Assembly (NCBI GenBank): GCA_000708525.1
Contig: JMRP01000002.1
Span: 1-64,000 of the forward strand
DNA length: 64,000 bases
Reading direction: 5' to 3'
Source of the DNA: Cyanobium sp. CACIAM 14
Lineage (GTDB): Bacteria > Cyanobacteriota > Cyanobacteriia > PCC-6307 > Cyanobiaceae
Translations under genes and position numbers: made by a program
Part shown: positions 23,967 to 44,209 of the stretch, piece after piece
Layout of the letters: each line of letters begins with the position of its first letter
How positions within the stretch are numbered: position 1 is the stretch's first letter
Notes under the pieces: generated by a model
The model's database searches: none
What the model was told of the DNA's origin: nothing
What the model saw: the letters and a program-made list of their open reading frames with translations, nothing else

Positions 23967-25174
23967 CGGTCCCGACGCGACGTTTCGGCCGTACCGGTCT
24001 GGCGATGCCGGTGCTCTCCCTGGGGGGCATGCGCTTCCAGCAGAGCTGGAGCGACCTGCCGGCCGAGGCGGTGGAGGCCGCCAGCCAGGAGCGCCTGCGT
24101 GCCACCCTGGTGGCCGCCCGGGCGGCGGGCCTGCATCACATCGAGACCGCCCGTCACTACGGCACCTCGGAACGGCAGCTGGGCTGGCTTCTCCCCGAGG
24201 TGCCCGATCCCCGTCGCCTGCTGCAGACCAAGGTCCCCCCGTCCGCCGACCCGGCGTTCTTCGAGGCCGAACTGGAGACCAGCTTCGAGCGTCTGGGCCT
24301 GGCGGGAGCCGGGGGGCGGGTCGACCTGCTCGCCATCCACGGGCTCAACACGCCGGAACTGCTGGAGCAGACCCTGCGGCCCGGGGGCTGCCTGGAGGTG
24401 GCCCGCCGCTGGCAGGAGGAGGGCCGGATCGGCAGCGTGGGCTTCTCCACCCATGCCCCCCTCCCCCTGATCCTGGAGGCCATCGCCAGCGACCGGTTCG
24501 ACTACATCAACCTTCACTGGTACTTCATCCGTCAGGAGAATCGGCCGGCGATCGAGGCGGCCACCGCCCACGACATGGGGGTCTTCCTGATCAGCCCCAC
24601 CGACAAGGGGGGGCATCTGCACACCCCCTCCGAGCGGATGCAGGAACTGTGCGCTCCCCTGCATCCCATCGTCTTCAACGACCTCTTCTGCCTCTCCGCT
24701 CCCGGCGTCCACACCATCAGCGTGGGCGCCGCCGGCCCCGAGGATCTGGCCCTGCATCTGGAGGCGGTGGAACTGCTGCCGCGGGCCTCCGAGCTGCTGC
24801 CGCCGATCCTGGAGCGGCTGGAGGCGGCCCGCCGCCTGGCCCTCGGCGACGCCTGGCTGGCCAGCTGGCCGGAGGGTCTGCCGGCCTGGCAGGACACACC
24901 GGGGCAGATCAACCTGCCGGTGCTGCTCTGGCTTCACAATCTCCTCGAGGCCTGGGATCTGGAGGGCTACGGGCGGGCCCGCTACGGCCTGCTCGGCCAG
25001 GGCGGCCACTGGTTTCCCGGTGAGAACGCCGATGCCCTCGACGGGGCGGTGAGCGAGGCCGACCTGCTGGCGGTGCTGGGGGCCAGCCCCTGGGCGGCCG
25101 AGATCCCGGCCCTGCTGCGGCGGCTGCGTCAGCGCCTCGGGGGCGAGACGGTGCGCCGGCTGCAGGTGGCCTGA
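23963..25174 (+). CDS. Aldo/keto reductase
   Basis: A 403-residue protein from the GTG at 23963. The N-terminal ~280 residues form an aldo/keto reductase barrel: RRFGRTGLAMPVLSLGGMRF, HHIETARHYGTSERQLGWLL (Asp of the tetrad appears replaced by Glu; Tyr kept), DLLAIHGLN (His) and SVGFSTHAP. A longer C-terminal extension follows, with HWFPGENADALD. Some relatives are iron-sulfur AKRs with a C-terminal cysteine cluster, but I see no such cluster here. GTGA overlap with the ferredoxin gene suggests the two act together. Confidence 0.88.
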   Translation: MTVPTRRFGRTGLAMPVLSLGGMRFQQSWSDLPAEAVEAASQERLRATLVAARAAGLHHIETARHYGTSERQLGWLLPEVPDPRRLLQTKVPPSADPAFFEAELETSFERLGLAGAGGRVDLLAIHGLNTPELLEQTLRPGGCLEVARRWQEEGRIGSVGFSTHAPLPLILEAIASDRFDYINLHWYFIRQENRPAIEAATAHDMGVFLISPTDKGGHLHTPSERMQELCAPLHPIVFNDLFCLSAPGVHTISVGAAGPEDLALHLEAVELLPRASELLPPILERLEAARRLALGDAWLASWPEGLPAWQDTPGQINLPVLLWLHNLLEAWDLEGYGRARYGLLGQGGHWFPGENADALDGAVSEADLLAVLGASPWAAEIPALLRRLRQRLGGETVRRLQVA

Positions 25175-25234
25175 GGAGCCGGTCTGGGTTCGGGGGCCGC
25201 TCGAAGGGCCGATGCGGATGTGAGGGCTGGCGGC

Positions 25235-25274
25235 CTGGAGTCGGTTCCTGCGCACTGGAGTGGATTCCTGCCCA
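25235..25274 (+). repeat. Two tandem 20-bp imperfect direct repeats
   Basis: CTGGAGTCGGTTCCTGCGCA at 25235-25254 is followed directly by CTGGAGTGGATTCCTGCCCA at 25255-25274, with three mismatches. A short third echo (CCTGGAGG) follows. The repeats sit at the border where sequence turns AT-rich, about 100 bp before the LCP gene, and could be an operator or a junction scar. Confidence 0.7.
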
Positions 25275-25369
25275 ATCCTGGAGGGGCTCATCCTTATCTT
25301 CAGGTTGCAATACAGGGTATCCGTTGATGTTTGAAACGATGCTAAATTGGCACAGAATCAGGTCTGGTC

Positions 25370-26293
25370 ATGGGGCGACAACGTCGGGTCCGCAGAGGGA
25401 ATCGTGACGGCGATGTCGCTGGACAAGCCACCACCGTGAATCGAACGAGAAGGAGAAGGAACCGGCGAAGAGGCGGGCTCATTGTGATGGGGAATCTTGC
25501 TTTGTTCGCCAGTGGGCTTCTGTTGGGCGGTTACCTCGCCAATGGATACACATCCATCGACCATGCGCTCAAGAATGCGGCTTATGAGCTGGATCCATCG
25601 CTGTTCAACAGGAAACGGGTCCTGGTTCTCGGCACCGACCAGAGTTCAGGAAGTACGGATGTGATGTTCACGGTTGAATCCGACGGTGCCATGACGGAGA
25701 TTGAGCAGATCCCCAGAGATACCATGGTCCAGAGCGGCAGGTTTGGGGTTGTCAAGGCCAATGCTCTCTATGCCCTTGGAGGGGCTGAGGCGGCTGAGGA
25801 TGAAGTGTCAAGACTGATCCATGGGAAGATCGACCACTTTGCGCGTGTCAATCTGGAAGGCGTGAGAAGAGCGGGAGACGCTTTGGATGGAATTGAGGTC
25901 AATGTTCCCGTAAGGATGAAATACGATGACTACTCTCAAAATCTGCATATTGATCTCTACCCCGGCAGACAGGTGCTGAAGGGGGCTGGTCTGGAGGGTT
26001 TCATCAGATTCCGTCATGATGGTCTGGGCGACATCGGGAGAATGGAAAGGCAGCGAGTCGTCTTCAATGCCCTGTTCGAGAAGATCCTGAGCCCAGGCGC
26101 ACTGGTGCATCTGCCCGACTTGATCCGAATCACGCAAGAGGACGTGAAAACGGATCTTTCTCCCATGGAAATCGGAGCCCTGCTTGGCCTCATGAAGGGC
26201 AACCACCTCAAGATCACCCGACTCGAGGGAAGGCCGGTGTGGTACAAGAATCTCAGTTTCTGGTTGCCTTCGGAAGAGTCACTACCCCTATGA
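25370..26293 (+). CDS. LytR-CpsA-Psr (LCP) family protein
   Basis: A 307-residue protein with a very basic N-terminus (TRRRRNRRRG), one membrane anchor (GNLALFASGLLLGGYLANGY) and an extracytoplasmic LCP domain. LCP motifs are VLVLGTDQSSGSTDVMF, IEQIPRDTMVQ, VKANALYALGGAEAAE, DGIEVNVPVRMKYDD and GFIRFRHDGLGDIGRMERQ. LCP enzymes attach polyprenyl-linked glycopolymers to the cell wall. The DNA here is clearly more AT-rich than the flanking genes, with codons such as AAT, TTT and AGA common, which suggests transfer. It is convergent with the MntP-like gene (12 nt). Confidence 0.87.
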   Translation: MGRQRRVRRGNRDGDVAGQATTVNRTRRRRNRRRGGLIVMGNLALFASGLLLGGYLANGYTSIDHALKNAAYELDPSLFNRKRVLVLGTDQSSGSTDVMFTVESDGAMTEIEQIPRDTMVQSGRFGVVKANALYALGGAEAAEDEVSRLIHGKIDHFARVNLEGVRRAGDALDGIEVNVPVRMKYDDYSQNLHIDLYPGRQVLKGAGLEGFIRFRHDGLGDIGRMERQRVVFNALFEKILSPGALVHLPDLIRITQEDVKTDLSPMEIGALLGLMKGNHLKITRLEGRPVWYKNLSFWLPSEESLPL

Positions 26294-26305
26294 GCCAGGG
26301 GATGG

Positions 26306-26854
26306 TCACTGAGTGAAGCTCTTGATTCCGAGGATCACCAGGATCGATCCACCAATGAGTTCAAGGCTCTTCCCTGTCGATGATCGCATTCGTTTGGCAA
26401 GGGCAAGGCCAAGAAGCACGGCAAGAAGGGCGCCGAAACCGATGGCCATGGAATAGTCGAGGATGGGTTTGCCGGTCAGGCCCAGAGTGATGCCAACACC
26501 AAGGTTGTCAATGCTGGTTGCGATGGAAACGAGAAGAATCGTCAGGTAGCGATGCTTCCTCGGTTGCGCTGTCTGGGTTGTCTCTGAATCGGGGTGCGAA
26601 AGTCCATTCAGGCACATGCGAACTCCCAGAAGGGAGAGGAAAAGAAAGATGATCCAGTGCTCATAGATGCCGATGATGTTCCTTGAGGCCTGCCCCGCCA
26701 GGAAGCCAGCCGCTGTTGCGAGCGTTCCTGAAAGAGCTGCCGTGACCCCATAGGACGAGGCTCGCTTGAACGAGAAACGCCGGAAGCCCATGGCAAGGGC
26801 GGCACAGAACGAATCTATGTTCAGGATCGTCGTGAACAGCAGGAGTTCGATCAT
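26306..26854 (-). CDS. mntP: MntP-like manganese efflux pump
   Basis: A 182-residue protein with six hydrophobic segments in two related halves. The twin motifs of the MntP (DUF204) family are visible: TTILNIDSFCAALAMGFRR in the first half and IATSIDNLGVGITLGLTG in the second, each with an acidic Asp in the membrane. MntP exports Mn2+. Base composition is AT-richer than the surroundings, as in the neighbouring LCP gene. The stop lies 12 nt from the convergent LCP stop. I see no manganese riboswitch-like leader, though 26855-27011 was only inspected by eye. Confidence 0.85.
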   Translation of the reverse strand: MIELLLFTTILNIDSFCAALAMGFRRFSFKRASSYGVTAALSGTLATAAGFLAGQASRNIIGIYEHWIIFLFLSLLGVRMCLNGLSHPDSETTQTAQPRKHRYLTILLVSIATSIDNLGVGITLGLTGKPILDYSMAIGFGALLAVLLGLALAKRMRSSTGKSLELIGGSILVILGIKSFTQ

Positions 26855-27011
26855 TTCGTGGTCTGGAGACGATGATCCGACAAATCCAAGTGTGGGGCTT
26901 GATTTCCTTTCGGCAGGCCCGGGCGATTCCTCCAGGATGGAAACTCTGGAGGAGATCGTGACTCCCTCAGGTCGTCAGGTCCGCTCCGCAGCAACGGATG
27001 CCGGCGTGGGA

Positions 27012-37177: not shown

Positions 37178-40033
37178 ATGCCCGATCGCCGCACCGCAGG
37201 CCGCGCCGCCGAAACCGTCACGGCCGCCGCCGACCCGGCCGGTGCGGAGCTGGTCCGTGACGGCGGGGGCAGCGGCAATGGGGTGCCGCCGCTGGAGCAG
37301 CTGTTCCCCTTCCCCCTCGACGGCTTCCAGCTCGAGGCGATCGACGCCCTCAACCAGGGCCACTCGGTGGTGGTGAGCGCCCCCACCGGCTCCGGCAAGA
37401 CGCTGGTGGGCGAGTACGCCATCCACCGCGCCCTGGCCCATGGCCAGAAGGTCTTCTACACCACGCCGCTGAAGGCGCTCTCCAACCAGAAGCTGCGGGA
37501 TTTCCGCGAGCAGTTCGGCCACGAGCGGGTGGGCCTGCTCACCGGCGACCTCAGCCTCAACCGGGAGGCCCAGGTGGTGGTGATGACCACCGAGATCTTC
37601 CGCAACATGCTCTACGCGGAGATCGACCACCCCGACGACGATCCGCTGGCCGACGTGGAGGCGGTGGTGCTCGACGAGTGCCACTACATGAACGACACCC
37701 AGCGCGGCACGGTCTGGGAGGAATCGATCATCCACTGTCCCTCGCGGGTCCAGCTGGTGGCCCTCTCGGCCACGGTGGCCAACGCGGGGCAGCTCACCGA
37801 CTGGATCGAACGGGTGCATGGCCCCACCCGCCTGATCCACAGCGACTTCCGGCCGGTGCCGCTGGCCTTCAGCTTCTGCAGCGCCAAGGGGCTGCACCCG
37901 CTGCTCAACGATGAAGGCACCGGCCTGCATCCCAACTGCAAGGTGTGGCGGCCGCCGAAGTCGACGCGTCGCAAGGGTCCGAAGGAACCGCGGCCGCCCC
38001 AGCCGGAGGCGCCGCCGATCGGCTTCGTGGTGGCCCAGATGGCGGAGCGGCAGATGCTGCCGGCCATCTACTTCATCTTCAGCCGCCGCGGCTGCGACCG
38101 GGCCGTGCGCGATCTGGCCACTGCCTGCCTGGTGGATGCCGAGGAGCAGACGCGCCTCCGCCACCGGCTCGACGCCTTCATCGCCGCCACCCCCGAGGCG
38201 GTGCGCGAGGGGGGCCATGCCGATGCCCTGCTGCGGGGCATCGCCGCCCACCACGCCGGCGTGCTGCCGGCCTGGAAGGAGCTGATCGAGGAGCTGTTCC
38301 AGCAGGGGCTGATCAAGGTGGTGTTCGCCACCGAGACGCTGGCCGCCGGCATCAACATGCCGGCCCGCACCACCGTGATCTCCGCCCTCTCCAAGCGCAC
38401 CGAGCGGGGCCACCGGCCGCTGATGGGCAGCGAGTTCCTGCAGATGGCCGGAAGGGCCGGTCGCCGCGGGCTCGACACCCAGGGCTACGTGGTGACGGTG
38501 CAGAGCCGCTTCGAGGGAGTGCGGGAGGCTGGGCAGCTGGCCACGAGCCCGGCCGATCCGCTGGTGAGCCAGTTCACTCCCAGCTACGGCATGGTGCTCA
38601 ACCTGCTGCAGCGCTACGACCTGGCCAAGGCGCGGGAGCTTGTGGAGCGCAGCTTCGGCCGCTACCTGGCCGGGCTGGACCTGGCCGAGGACGAGGCCCG
38701 CATCGCCGAGCTCACCGCCCAGTTGGCCTCCCTGGAGTCGAGCGGCGGCGAGGTGCCCTGGGATGACTTCGAGGACTACGAGAAGCTGCGTGGCCGGCTG
38801 CGGGAGGAGCGCCGCCTGCACCGGATCCTGCAGCAGCAGGCGGAGGAGACCCTGGCCCACGAGCTCACCCTGGCGCTGCAGTTCGCCAGCGAGGGCACCC
38901 TGGTGAGCGTCAAGGCGCCCGCGCTGCGCAGCCGGGTCACGCCGGCGGTGATCGTGGCCAAGGTGCCGGGGCCCGGGCAGTTCCCGCTGCTGCTCTGCCT
39001 CACCGAAGAGAACGTCTGGATCCTGCTGCCCTGCCATGCGGTGGTGAGCCTGCACGCCGAGCTCAGCTGTCTGCAGGTGAGCCAGCTGACGCCGCCCGAG
39101 CTCCACCACCCCGGTGAGCTGCGCCACGGCGACAACGCCAGCGGCGGCCTGGCTCTGGCGGTGGCGTCGATGGCCCGCCGCCACGACATGCACACCCCCC
39201 GCTACGACCTGGCCGGCGAGGTGCAGCAGCAGGGTCAGCTGGTGCGGCAGTTGGAGCAGGAGTTGGAGGTCCACCCCGCCCACCGCTGGGGCGACCGCAA
39301 GCACCTCAAGAAGCACCGGCGGCGCATGGAGGAGCTGGAGGCGGAGATTGCCGAGCGGCAGCGGCTGCTGCACCACCGGGCCAACCGCCACTGGGAGACG
39401 TTCCTGTCGCTGATCGAGATCCTGCGCTTCTTCGGGGCGCTGGGGGGCGAGGAGGGGCTGGAGCCCACCGAGGTGGGCCGCACCGTGGCAGCCCTGCGGG
39501 GCGACAACGAACTCTGGCTGGGGCTGGCGCTGATGAGCGGTCACCTCGACGCCGTCGATCCCGCCGAGCTGGCGGCGGTGCTGGAGGCCATCTCCACGGA
39601 GGTGAACCGGCCCGACCTCTGGTGCGGCTACCCGCCGCCGCCGCTGGCCGAGGAGGCTCTGCACGACCTGCGCGGTCTGCGGCGGGAACTGCACCGCCAG
39701 CAGGAGCGGCGGGCGGTGGTGGTGCCGGTGTGGTGGGAGCCGGAGCTGACGGGCCTGGTGCACGCCTGGGCGAAGGGGGCCAGCTGGAGCGACGTGATCG
39801 CCAACACCTCGCTGGATGAGGGCGATGTGGTGCGGATCCTGCGCCGCACGGTGGATCTGCTGGCCCAGGTGCCTTACGCCGAGGCGATCAGCGAACAGCT
39901 GCGCAGCAACGCCCGCCGGGCGCTGCGGGCGATCAACCGCTTCCCGGTCTGCGAGATCGAGGACCTGCTGGCCGGCGCCCCTGTGCAGGCGCCGGTGCCG
40001 GAGGCCTCGCCCGATCCTGCGCCGGGGCGGTGA
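37178..40033 (+). CDS. Ski2-like DEAD/DEAH-box RNA helicase
   Basis: A 951-residue helicase. Walker A is VVSAPTGSGKTLVGEYAIHR with Lys74; YTTPLKALSNQKLRDF is motif Ia, VVLDECHYMNDTQRGTVWEE the Walker B (DECH) and LVALSATVANAGQL motif III. VVFATETLAAGINMPARTTV and QMAGRAGRRGLDTQGYV give motifs V and VI. The C-terminal half has a coiled stretch and a DSHCT-like end (LVHAWAKGASWSDVIANTSL). The layout resembles Mtr4/Ski2 and plastid ISE2, pointing to RNA processing or turnover. It is divergent from the exporter trio. Confidence 0.93.
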   Translation: MPDRRTAGRAAETVTAAADPAGAELVRDGGGSGNGVPPLEQLFPFPLDGFQLEAIDALNQGHSVVVSAPTGSGKTLVGEYAIHRALAHGQKVFYTTPLKALSNQKLRDFREQFGHERVGLLTGDLSLNREAQVVVMTTEIFRNMLYAEIDHPDDDPLADVEAVVLDECHYMNDTQRGTVWEESIIHCPSRVQLVALSATVANAGQLTDWIERVHGPTRLIHSDFRPVPLAFSFCSAKGLHPLLNDEGTGLHPNCKVWRPPKSTRRKGPKEPRPPQPEAPPIGFVVAQMAERQMLPAIYFIFSRRGCDRAVRDLATACLVDAEEQTRLRHRLDAFIAATPEAVREGGHADALLRGIAAHHAGVLPAWKELIEELFQQGLIKVVFATETLAAGINMPARTTVISALSKRTERGHRPLMGSEFLQMAGRAGRRGLDTQGYVVTVQSRFEGVREAGQLATSPADPLVSQFTPSYGMVLNLLQRYDLAKARELVERSFGRYLAGLDLAEDEARIAELTAQLASLESSGGEVPWDDFEDYEKLRGRLREERRLHRILQQQAEETLAHELTLALQFASEGTLVSVKAPALRSRVTPAVIVAKVPGPGQFPLLLCLTEENVWILLPCHAVVSLHAELSCLQVSQLTPPELHHPGELRHGDNASGGLALAVASMARRHDMHTPRYDLAGEVQQQGQLVRQLEQELEVHPAHRWGDRKHLKKHRRRMEELEAEIAERQRLLHHRANRHWETFLSLIEILRFFGALGGEEGLEPTEVGRTVAALRGDNELWLGLALMSGHLDAVDPAELAAVLEAISTEVNRPDLWCGYPPPPLAEEALHDLRGLRRELHRQQERRAVVVPVWWEPELTGLVHAWAKGASWSDVIANTSLDEGDVVRILRRTVDLLAQVPYAEAISEQLRSNARRALRAINRFPVCEIEDLLAGAPVQAPVPEASPDPAPGR

Positions 40034-40625
40034 GCCGCCGGCTGGGGGATAGACGGAGCGGGATAGGGGCGGCAAGAACCGACTGATGAAGCCACCTCAG
40101 AGCTCGATGGCTGAGGTACAGCGGCATCGGTGTGAGTGCCGGCAAGGATGGAATCCCCGGGATGCAGGACTTGCGGGGCCATTGGGATGTGATCACCCCC
40201 ATGATCTGCACCGATGTGCTCGACTGAGGCCCCCAAGAGAGTGGCCTGCACTGCCGACCGTCCGTAGCGCATCGAACATGCCCTTACAGGACCCTGTAAT
40301 CATGCCCGCCAACTCACATGGAGCATTGGCCATGACTGCCCGCCAGCTGTTCTCGGTAATGGTGAGCGCACTTTCCGATGTGGTTACAGGGCAAACGGTT
40401 GGAAACCCCGGCACTTACGGGATCCGCCCATTTAGCGTTAGCTAGAAAGCCATGACGTTATCGGACTCTTTCGGATTCCTTGAACATCCACTTACTCTTG
40501 AAATGAATGAAGGCCGAAGTAGCCTTTACCTCTAACACAGATGATCCTTACATTCCACTTAGAGTATTTCAGAGCGTGAACGCGGCCGCCAAAGCAGGCC
40601 CAGGCTGTTAAATTAATATTATGCG
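40034..40625. other. Intergenic stretch without a supported gene; start of AT-rich segment
   Basis: A 592-nt gap. The first ~400 bases are of normal composition and hold short open stretches, such as one ending HWDVITPMICTDVLD near 40225, that resemble coding remnants but have no clear start. From about 40440 the sequence is AT-rich up to the next gene; the last bases before it (TTAAATTAATATTAT) would suit a promoter. No tRNA, terminator or repeat was found by eye. Confidence 0.5.
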
Positions 40626-41723
40626 ATGTATTCCATGGCTCCAGACTTTATTCCTACATTTTCCGCGGCAGCCGGGAGTTTGGCTGGATATGCTTTCCGC
40701 GAGTATAGAAATCGCATAACCCCTTTTCTTCAGATAATCAACGTTACTGGAGATAACTTCAGGAATTATGACTCTTGCAACGTTGACGTAAACGTCATCA
40801 ATAAGCTGAAGGCGGCAGATTTGGCTGAGCCGCTTTCAGAGAGATCGACTCTCAGGGAAGTCTATGGAGCGTGGGATAGCATGTCTGATATTTCTACAAA
40901 ATGGCCAGCATACAAAGATAAGGTTCAAGCATTTCTTGCTAATAATACAATAGATGAATCTCGCTTGCTGCTTTGGCAGCTATTCAAATATCAGCATTTT
41001 GATGACACTCTGACAAAACTTTTGACTGCTGGGAAGCTGAGCGTTCCTTCCGCTGATTCAACACTCCAACCCATACTTGACTCATTTTATGACGCCGATG
41101 GCGCTTGGATAGTCTTTCCAAATGGAAATGCGAGCTTAGGGACAAGCTTCAAGACCGATTCTCAGATTGTTCAAAAGAGGCTATCTCCATTTCTCGACCT
41201 CGTCATTCGACTTGAAATTCCGAAGATCAAGTCTGTCCTTGCAAGCTATGAGAAGATTCTTAGCGATAATTACTACATTGCAAACGAGGTTGGAGCCCCA
41301 CTGAAAGCAATTTTAGATTTAAGCTCAAGGTGGATGCTTGACTGCTATGTTGCCAATGTAGATTCCACGCCGTTAATAATAGAGCCAAATGCTTCTATTC
41401 TTGTTCGAGATCGAAGAACAATAAGTTATGTCCTTCGTGGAAGTCTGCTCACTGCTTCTTATGACGAGAGTGGTGATAGCTTACGGTATCACTCAACTTC
41501 GACTCCACTCATCATTAGATCTGGAGAGGATGCTAAATTTGCGATTGTGACCAACGAAACCCAAGGGGAGTTGGTTGATGGTTCAGCTGTACGCGAGTGC
41601 TTCAGTCGGGGACTTGCATTATGTCGGGTTAAAGTGTGTCTTCGGAAGGTTGGTCTTCTTCGTCGACAGGCATATCTTTCTCCATCTATCCCCTTTGCAG
41701 AGCCCAAATCCTCTCCGCAGTAG
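40626..41723 (+). CDS. Orphan protein with N-terminal membrane-like segment, unknown
   Basis: A 365-residue protein whose DNA is strikingly AT-rich compared with the flanking helicase and purB genes, with codons (AAT, TTT, TCT, AGA) unlike the neighbours. The N-terminus (FIPTFSAAAGSLAGYAFREY) is a weak membrane or signal-like helix followed by basic residues, a layout seen in membrane-tethered soluble proteins. The rest is mixed helix and strand with no motif I recognise; no nuclease, kinase or P-loop signature is visible. The final ~50 residues become cysteine- and arginine-rich, so the true end could be altered by a frameshift. Likely horizontally acquired. Confidence 0.7.
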   Translation: MYSMAPDFIPTFSAAAGSLAGYAFREYRNRITPFLQIINVTGDNFRNYDSCNVDVNVINKLKAADLAEPLSERSTLREVYGAWDSMSDISTKWPAYKDKVQAFLANNTIDESRLLLWQLFKYQHFDDTLTKLLTAGKLSVPSADSTLQPILDSFYDADGAWIVFPNGNASLGTSFKTDSQIVQKRLSPFLDLVIRLEIPKIKSVLASYEKILSDNYYIANEVGAPLKAILDLSSRWMLDCYVANVDSTPLIIEPNASILVRDRRTISYVLRGSLLTASYDESGDSLRYHSTSTPLIIRSGEDAKFAIVTNETQGELVDGSAVRECFSRGLALCRVKVCLRKVGLLRRQAYLSPSIPFAEPKSSPQ

Positions 41724-42913
41724 CAAACATGCGATTGTCATGACATTTAGATCGTGTTTAAGGGTTCTCCACTCAATCCATGAACGATGACGAATCTTTA
41801 ATCTGGTAAGCCTGTGATAGTGATAATCCAACATATTTAGATTGACCTTGCTCCCACATTGCGAATACTTGAAAGATGAACTGTGATGGCTTTGGAGTTA
41901 CTGGAAAATTTCTTAGTCCATTCCCCCTGCTACCACTGCATCCCTAAGCCAGCAGAGAAAATGAATGAGTCGCCTTTGTGGACAATACTGCCAATCCAGC
42001 GATTCGTGCACAACTATAAGGCACTTCTCCACCCCGTCAAGACCCCCTGTTCCAAGGAGTAGGTGGCCGATTCCGGGAATACCGGAACCAGCACCTGCGA
42101 CTGCTCTCCATGCCCTTCTCCACCGCCGATATCTCTATCCAGCTGCTGATGGAAGTGGCAAATGGCCTACAAGAGATCAAGAGCCCCGCATGACCGCCAT
42201 AGCCTTCGGTGCCGTCCACCCCCGAAGCGCGCTCCTGCAGCGTGCTGGGTACTGGGACAGATGCTGGAGGCTGTCGCGTGAGCGGGCTGGATTTTCCAGA
42301 GTCTCATAAGCACTTTGAAGCCCCGTATGACAACAATCAACCCAATTTAATCTATGAGTTGCGTAATGAGTAGTTTCGCGAAGCTTTATGGGATGGGGCA
42401 ACATCTGACCTTAATCCTAAGCCTGGCAATTCATTTCATATCGTAAATTAGCTTGATCGACTTAATTCAAGGCTCATTGTTGCCATCACAGGATATCGAA
42501 AAAGCTATACAAGATCTGGGTGGTGGTTTTTCGGGTGGGAGCCCTTTGGGAAATCTAGCTAACATCAAGATGCAGAAGACGGGAGCGAATAGTGCCGACT
42601 CCTCCAAAGTCATCACCCGCTTCTGATCTTGGCGTTGGCCGGTCCCAATCAGGGGTTTCCTGCACAGGGAAGGTTGGAACTGAGGCCACGTGTGATGAGT
42701 GCCTGCCCTGGCAAGGCGGTTCGATGTCGCTGTCGAAAAAGACCCAGAGGCTGTTTCGTTGCGAGTGTGCCAGCACCCTCTGGCGTTCATGCTCAGACGC
42801 GTCCTCTTGATGGGCCTGGATCAGCGGCCTGGCCAGGAGCGCCCGAAGCCGCAGCGTGACCGCCTCTGTCGGCGGATGCGCCCGACGCGGCTCATTGAGG
42901 GCCCTGCTCCGCC
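41724..42913. other. AT-rich, gene-poor accessory segment
   Basis: A 1190-nt stretch with no gene I can name. It contains a 58-codon open frame at 41886-42062 on the plus strand (MALELLENFLVHSPCYHCIP onward), a coding-like stretch directly after it in another frame (GRFREYRNQHLRLL to about 42192), and the stop-interrupted stretch listed at 42278-42562. Composition returns to normal near 42800, just downstream of purB. It looks like a decayed insertion. Confidence 0.5.
42278..42562 (+). pseudogene. Possible decayed gene with two in-frame stops
   Basis: Reading from a GTG at 42278, a protein-like sequence (GLDFPESHKHFEAPYDNNQP onward) meets TAG at 42371 and again at 42449, yet stays protein-like afterwards (REALWDGATSDLNPKPGNSF, then RLIVAITGYRKSYTRSGWWF) until TAA at 42560. 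Aromatic and charged residues are distributed as in real proteins. I do not recognise a family. It could be chance, since nothing independent confirms it. Confidence 0.3.
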
Positions 42914-44209
42914 TCAGATCCCCAGCCGCTCCCAGATCACTCCCAGGTTGGCCCGGTGCAGGTCGGTGGAGAAGCAGTCGGCCAGCTGCGCGGCGCTCAG
43001 GCGTGATGTCACCTCCGGATCGGCCGCCAGGTTGGCGCGGAAGTCGCCGCCGTCGCGGTTCCATGCCTCGTGGGCATGGCGCTGCACGATGCGGTAGGCC
43101 TCCTCGCGGCTCAGCCCCGATTCCACCAGGGCCAGCAGCACCCGCTGGCTGAACACCACGCCGCCGTAGACATTCATATTGCGGGCCATGTTCTCGGGGT
43201 ACACGCCCAGCCCCTTCACCACCTCGGTCATCTCCCGCAGCATGAAGTGCAGGGTCACCGAGCAGTCGGGCAGCATCATCCGCTCCACCGAACTGTGGCT
43301 GATGTCCCGTTCGTGCCAGAGGGCGCAGTTCTCCAGGGCGGCCACGGTATAGCTCCGCAGCACCCGGGCCAGACCGCTGATGCGCTCGCTGCGGATCGGG
43401 TTGCGCTTGTGGGGCATGGCGGAACTGCCCTTCTGGCCCTTGGCGAAGTTCTCCTCCACCTCCAGCACGTCGGTGCGCTGCAGGTTGCGGATCTCGGTGG
43501 AGAACCGCTCCAGGGAGGCGCCGATCAGCGCAAGAGTCTGCACGTATTCGGCATGCCGGTCGCGGGAGATCACCTGGGTGCTGGCGGTGTCGACCGCCAG
43601 GCCCAGCAGCCGGCAGGTGATCGCCTCCACCTCGGGGTCGGTGTTGGCGTAGGTGCCCATGGCGCCGCTCACCTGCCCCACGGCCACCACCTCGGCGAGA
43701 CGCTCCAGCCGCTGGCGGTTGCGCTCCGTTTCGGCCAGCCAGCCGGCCACCTTGAAGCCGAAGGTGATCGGTTCGCCGTGGATGGCGTGGGAGCGGCCGA
43801 TCATCACCGTGTCGCGGTGGCTGCGGGCCAACTCCCGCAGGGCGCCGGCGAGGGCATCGACTTCCTTCCGCAGCACCTCCACCGAAGCCTTCAGCTGCAG
43901 GGCCAGTCCCGTGTCGAGCACGTCGGAGCTGGTCATGCCCACGTGGATGTAGCGCCCCGCATCGCCCACGTGCTCGTTCACATTGGTGAGGAAGGCGATC
44001 ACGTCGTGTCGCACCTCCGCCTCGATCTCCAGGATCCGGCTCACCTCGAAGGCGGCCTTCTCGCGGATGGTGGCCATGGCCTCGGCCGGCACCCGGCCCA
44101 GTTCGGCGTTGGCCTGGCAGGCGGCGATCTCCACCTCCAGCCAGCTGCGGAACTTGGCTTCCTCGCTCCAGAGGTCGCCCATCTCCGGGAGGGTGTAACG
44201 CTCGATCAA
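42914..44209 (-). CDS. purB: Adenylosuccinate lyase
   Basis: A 431-residue enzyme acting twice in purine synthesis: it splits SAICAR to AICAR and adenylosuccinate to AMP, releasing fumarate. The start is a TTG giving the family's usual IERYTLPEMGDLWSEEAKF; no ATG or GTG fits. Motifs are HVGMTSSDVLDTGLALQLK, IGRSHAIHGEPITFGFKVAG and the superfamily signature KGSSAMPHKRNPIRSERISG. It borders the AT-rich accessory segment but is itself of normal composition. Confidence 0.97.
   Translation of the reverse strand: MIERYTLPEMGDLWSEEAKFRSWLEVEIAACQANAELGRVPAEAMATIREKAAFEVSRILEIEAEVRHDVIAFLTNVNEHVGDAGRYIHVGMTSSDVLDTGLALQLKASVEVLRKEVDALAGALRELARSHRDTVMIGRSHAIHGEPITFGFKVAGWLAETERNRQRLERLAEVVAVGQVSGAMGTYANTDPEVEAITCRLLGLAVDTASTQVISRDRHAEYVQTLALIGASLERFSTEIRNLQRTDVLEVEENFAKGQKGSSAMPHKRNPIRSERISGLARVLRSYTVAALENCALWHERDISHSSVERMMLPDCSVTLHFMLREMTEVVKGLGVYPENMARNMNVYGGVVFSQRVLLALVESGLSREEAYRIVQRHAHEAWNRDGGDFRANLAADPEVTSRLSAAQLADCFSTDLHRANLGVIWERLGI

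Follow-up and report, generated by a model that had tools for sequence, protein, structure and literature searches.

A probable relict inverted integron carrying an orphan gene between the helicase and purB genes of Cyanobium sp. CACIAM 14

Introduction

What is an AT-rich segment with an orphan gene doing between two convergent genes of a high-GC cyanobacterium, and what might that gene do? The segment lies on contig 2 of the 3.2-Mb Cyanobium sp. CACIAM 14 genome, between genes for which we kept the names helicase and purB from the original prediction, and was studied within a window of 64,000 nucleotides (positions 1 to 64,000 of contig JMRP01000002.1). The genome encodes psbA, a family present in only one of 14 control genomes, that of Synechococcus elongatus, which marks the host as a cyanobacterium. 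The original prediction had proposed an acquired accessory segment encoding an orphan protein, perhaps of defence or surface function. We confirmed the acquired accessory segment and its orphan protein, and propose that it is very likely a relict inverted integron inserted at the helicase-purB junction, an assignment read from sequence features; this confidence applies to the integron and not to the function of the orphan gene.

Integrons are already on record in Cyanobacteria, according to the cited parts of five papers (PMC2426708, PMC3108266, PMC3607928, PMC8352920, PMC9668308). They include an intI of Synechococcus sp. (PMC3108266), and Cyanobacteria are one of the 11 taxa with an attC model of their own in PMC8352920. 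Inverted chromosomal integrons have been recorded in Treponema, and the intI tree of the same source places a Synechococcus sp. intI beside Treponema (PMC3607928, part cited). No title devoted to cyanobacterial integrons appeared among the matches listed from the open-licence literature, which is weak evidence of absence.

Results

Composition of the segment and variability of the junction

The AT-rich stretch begins just past the helicase stop (40033) and extends to about 42907, short of the end of purB. Its GC content is 0.43-0.49, compared with about 0.70 before the drop, and GC3 is 0.40 in the orphan ORF, 0.94 in the helicase and 0.93 in purB; the AT-rich insert and the sharp shift in codon use that had been predicted are thus both real. 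A second GC drop, to about 0.55 with positive GC skew, occurs in the window at 25001-27000. The window contains no tRNA genes, and a sub-threshold Rfam match to a CRISPR repeat, located within the helicase, was set aside.

Helicase and purB were found on one contig in 30 of the 42 genomes of the genus, this one included. In the other 29 junctions the gap, as read off the match edges, was at most about 160 bp in 12 cases, about 0.75-5 kb in 15 and above 25 kb in two. The cargo varies by species: nine ORFs were scanned with Pfam, of which three had no match, and the matches include AAA_16, Acyl_transf_3 with SGNH, PIN, fumarase C, an oxidoreductase and DFP. None of the 20 junctions fetched from relatives (L035-L054) contained an attC site, so that the junction appears variable but is no integron hotspot by the attC test. 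The original prediction would have fallen had homologues of normal composition occupied this place in most relatives; no relative among the genomes searched shares the ORF. The features recognised in the segment are listed in Table 1.

Table 1. Features of the segment between helicase and purB (positions in the window).
Feature	Position	Strand	Evidence
Decayed intI 3' end	40132..40266	+	Internal stop and loss of the catalytic Tyr codon (alignment, three-frame translation); remainder of the gene missing
attI region	40267..40443	+	Core GGATCCGCCCATTTAGCGTT at 40420-40439; crossover G/TT at 40437/40438
Single gene cassette, 2197 bp	40438..42634	+	Paired attI/attC heptamers; same rule in relatives
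Orphan cassette gene, 365 aa	40626..41723	+	Intact ORF, no convincing relative
3' part of the cassette, without long ORF	41724..42556	+	Short sequence known from relatives, present as a broken copy at 42108-42219
attC recombination site	42557..42640	+	85.3 bits with a model excluding this genome; DNA fold z -2.76 (bottom strand), -3.11 (top strand)
Interval from attC to purB end	42641..42907	not assigned	42706-42815 resembles sequence in two relatives (G033, G026)

An attC site at the 3' end of the segment

The site at the 3' end was first seen as a multi-copy element, positions 42559-42636 matching most of the 42 genomes in a DNA search of the genus. In the surroundings of such sites, an element of about 85 bp recurs in direct orientation, with single genes between its copies. 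Insertion-sequence ends were considered for 42559-42636 and rejected, the copies being direct repeats between single genes and having attC-type ends. Thirty-three distinct sites, the one in the window included, have RYYYAAC and GTTRRRY as their two ends and inner arms that are complementary to each other, which are the features of attC sites. The cassette described here thus ends as an integron cassette should, with both end motifs and an inner part that folds as DNA better than its shuffles on either strand.

Because our first covariance model (R1) contained the site of the window, we built a second one (R2) from 30 attC sites of relatives, leaving out this site and the whole genome. Both models recovered the attC of the window, which R2 scored at E 7e-23 on the + strand and at 25.7 bits on the - strand. 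With filters off, nothing else above 6.2 bits was found in 39500-43500, and the presence of a single attC was counted against the integron reading.

The intI remnant and attI

On the other side of the orphan gene, residues 288-320 of an IntI encoded on contig 12 of the same genome matched 40132-40233 in a tblastn search (50% identity, E 7.9e-5 on a 750-bp subject). At the DNA level, 40161-40433 matched contig 12 at 68%, over a region corresponding to the 3' end of the integron integrase gene and the sequence downstream. The remnant is too short to have been found in our whole-genome search for IntI proteins at E 1e-30, and we counted this miss against the integron reading. Only a dead 3' remnant of intI is therefore present here, and the locus lacks the intact intI of a functional integron. 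The full-length IntI of contig 12, for its part, scored 459.9 bits against TIGR02249 (cut-off 265); it contains the motifs bearing the Arg, Lys, His and Tyr residues that tyrosine recombinases conserve, together with the IntI-specific insertion.

The homology with the contig 12 integron ends at the attI crossover: identity is 71% over 270 bp on the left and 58% on the right, where shuffles average 60% with a maximum of 64%. The attI core has 19 of 19 aligned bases in common with the stretch downstream of another intI relic in the genome (L116), and close though less exact cores follow several intI genes of relatives. Of 34 regions searched with a simple pattern for the core, 16 had a match, among them the window and one region where the match sits at an odd position; the slightly different core of contig 12 escaped the pattern. 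This yield was also counted against the integron reading. The GTT of attI lies about 170 nt past the intI stop position here, and 175-178 nt past it in six relatives. We thus recovered an attI beside the intI remnant, with core and crossover common to other integrons.

Integrons elsewhere in the genome and the genus

IntI or fragments of it were detected in 34 of the 42 genomes of the genus, and attC sites in 39 of them (model R1, E <= 1e-4). The Cyanobium sp. CACIAM 14 genome has ten attC sites at E <= 0.1 with the same model, two of them weak. Among 30 intI loci, nine had an attC in the fetched flank, and in all nine this site shares the strand of intI and follows its 3' end; this layout is also that of our locus. 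The genome contains two further intI relics with stops, L116 (G000:C2:118000-127500), which carries the attI core, and L117 (G000:C18:43500-50000); each is followed on its own strand by an attC-like site, of which the one on C18 is weak (25.6 bits). In a relative assembled as a single contig (G022:C1), ten attC-like sites (E <= 1e-3) are spread over 1.52-3.26 Mb, only some of them paired, and intI is located at 2303916-2304860; the cassettes of this relative seem scattered and not collected into a single array.

Boundaries and 3' part of the cassette

The attI heptamer GTTAGCT (40437-40443) is the exact reverse complement (7/7) of the attC heptamer AGCTAAC (42557-42563), which occurs in two of the 32 aligned attC sites, the window's included. 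As a positive control, we compared the attI heptamer and the first attC in nine integrons of relatives and obtained 7/7 in six, 6/7 in two and no match in one. Of 19 neighbouring attC pairs, ten matched at 7/7, five at 6/7 and four at 3-5/7, the number of 7/7 matches in shuffled pairs being 2.8 on average and eight at most in 5000. Three of the seven heptamer positions hardly vary, so that this test rests on four free ones, a limit also counted against the integron reading.

The orphan ORF ends 833 bp before attC, which was counted against the integron reading; most of the cassette genes that we accepted in the genus end less than about 100 bp from attC, under a limit that we set ourselves. 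The longest ORF in these 833 bp on the + strand has 114 aa, and the sequence at 42108-42219 has counterparts in several relatives that read through in a longer frame, and is itself shortened. Similar sequences recur in L056, L059, L060, L061, L063, L069, L070, L080 and L083, in some of them with a frame of about 60 residues. The cassette could possibly be two cassettes fused after the loss of an attC. The original prediction that everything outside the long gene was decayed coding sequence thus held in part, having overlooked the attI and the intact-looking attC.

The orphan gene and its product

The predicted ORF exists and is intact: it lies in a frame free of stops for 368 codons, whereas in 300 first-order random sequences the longest frame averaged 114 codons and never exceeded 205. 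Nothing like a promoter was detected upstream on the + strand, and promoter-like sites were not more numerous than in shuffles, which was counted against the integron reading. In agreement with the claim that the protein belongs to no recognisable family, it had no match among Pfam, NCBIfam and PADLOC profiles; for PADLOC, our test for known anti-phage defence proteins, this held at E up to 10. The two PHROGs matches had E values of 0.064 and 0.34, and the three matches to PDB sequences (E 0.68-2.1) were all GCN4 coiled-coil constructs.

Plasmids, phages, genome_contigs and viral_contigs yielded no homologue; for the last two the scan relied on exact matches to short peptide patterns, able to reveal no more than close relatives, and for genome_contigs it used the entire protein and then its 51 N-terminal residues. 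The protein had no match in 59 other genomes, 36 of them of the same genus, and a DNA search of the 42 genus genomes returned no match inside the ORF among those listed (at most seven candidates scored per genome). In a sample of the phylum, one of 385 other genomes (G354) gave a 73-residue match with an internal stop (E 6.1e-4 per genome), about what chance would give over 386 genomes.

AlphaFold2, run on the single sequence, gave a mean pLDDT of 34.5. The membrane-tether-like N-terminus that had been suggested was not recovered: the strongly hydrophobic N-terminal helix of a membrane-anchored protein was not seen, none of the six top hydropathy stretches is N-terminal, and the best 19-residue Kyte-Doolittle mean, a value on the hydropathy scale only, is 1.01 at residues 189-207. 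This profile lends no support to a surface or membrane role either. The statement that no motif supports a specific function is right for the protein and wrong for the DNA, which contains attI, attC and the intI 3' remnant.

Genes of sister cassettes

From 50 attC sites of the genus and this genome, excluding that of the window, we collected 36 cassette ORFs ending at most 110 bp from attC, after removal of duplicates; the orphan is not among them and some are probably not genes. Among the 25 of 33 Pfam families listed, BrnA antitoxin was matched by three ORFs, Abi_alpha by two, and TIR_2, Mrr_cat, HepT-like, HicB-like antitoxin, HI1420-type antidote, ParE and HNH by one each. These families account for at most 12 of the 36 ORFs, a count in which the matching members are not told apart. 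PADLOC matches (25 of 97 listed) include PtuA/PtuB, a type IV restriction enzyme and several candidate (PDC) families. One 322-aa TIR-domain gene (L082:2002-3197; Pfam TIR_2 1.7e-29, PADLOC PDC-S66 5.3e-22) lies between two attC sites whose heptamers match at 7/7.

Discussion

The attI, the attC and the intI 3' remnant together identify the carrier of the orphan gene as an integron. On the + strand the sequence shows, in this order, a dead intI 3' remnant pointing toward attI, then attI, one cassette with the orphan ORF, and an intact-looking attC. Two other origins of the segment were weighed. That an integrase acting in trans put a solitary cassette into a secondary, attG-like chromosomal site, at a place that never had an integron platform, would suit the single attC of the locus and the scatter of ten attC sites over G022; we nevertheless consider it very unlikely, as the intI remnant and attI core are directly upstream, laid out as in the integrons of relatives. 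An insertion-sequence or phage remnant with an end resembling attC by chance would agree with the 85-bp element being multi-copy in the genus and adjoined by short multi-copy fragments, but the arrangement of the copies as direct repeats between single genes, their RYYYAAC/GTTRRRY ends, the paired heptamers and an orphan protein with no phage or plasmid match make this explanation very improbable.

Under the preferred relict-integron reading, a once-active IntI would have captured a circular AT-rich cassette of foreign origin by recombining its attC with attI, and the subsequent decay of intI would have left the cassette stranded. Excision of the cassette in trans may still be possible, given the full-length IntI, with its expected motifs, that is encoded elsewhere in the genome.

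The device is a known one, and what is new is the captured orphan gene. Compared with the inverted integrons of Treponema (PMC3607928, part cited), the platform is dead here, one cassette is left and the host is cyanobacterial. The surveys of integrons and attC sites in Cyanobacteria concern the same phylum and the same parts as here (PMC2426708, PMC8352920, PMC9668308); in their cited portions they record presence, and do not describe this locus, or the cassette genes and relict platforms of the genus. Pseudo-integrons and CALINs likewise combine a decayed intI with cassettes left behind (PMC2426708, PMC9668308, PMC12444791, in the parts cited), whereas our locus has one attC accompanied by attI and an intI remnant; it falls short of the at least two attC sites without intI that are the CALIN threshold in the cited part of PMC12444791.

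Among the close parallels are the chromosomal integrons of Vibrio, anti-phage reservoirs in which most cassettes are of unknown function, as here (PMC12409362, part cited). Anti-phage activity was tested there by expression, whereas we have family matches in sister cassettes and none for the orphan. In the cited excerpts, anti-phage activity was obtained with at least 16 of 179 Vibrio cholerae cassettes (PMC12409362), and 20% is quoted for cassettes without predicted function (PMC12444791). With these rates in mind, and because other cassettes of the genus carry toxin-antitoxin and anti-phage genes, our best guess, which stays tentative, is that the orphan encodes an accessory protein with an anti-phage or stress function. 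That the ORF is now a functionless passenger of a dead element has a sizeable, if minority, chance of being correct: intI is dead, the 3' half of the cassette is decayed, no promoter-like site precedes the ORF and the gene is common to no relative, in the 59 other genomes or the phylum sample; against this stands a 365-codon frame kept intact next to decayed sequence.

More speculatively, and rather improbably as a whole, the genus might run a dispersed integron system, with working and relict inverted integrons and single cassettes spread over the chromosome and holding a stock of small toxin-antitoxin and anti-phage genes, and the orphan, lodged in one of the relicts, would be the first example of a new family of defence proteins.

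What was an unexplained island has become a defined and testable element, and the 85-position attC model makes it possible to collect cassette genes from this cyanobacterial genus. The TIR, Mrr, Septu-like, abortive-infection and toxin-antitoxin genes found beside attC sites make cassette genes like the orphan reasonable candidates for new proteins of phage defence, and such candidates matter in an ecologically important group of bacteria.
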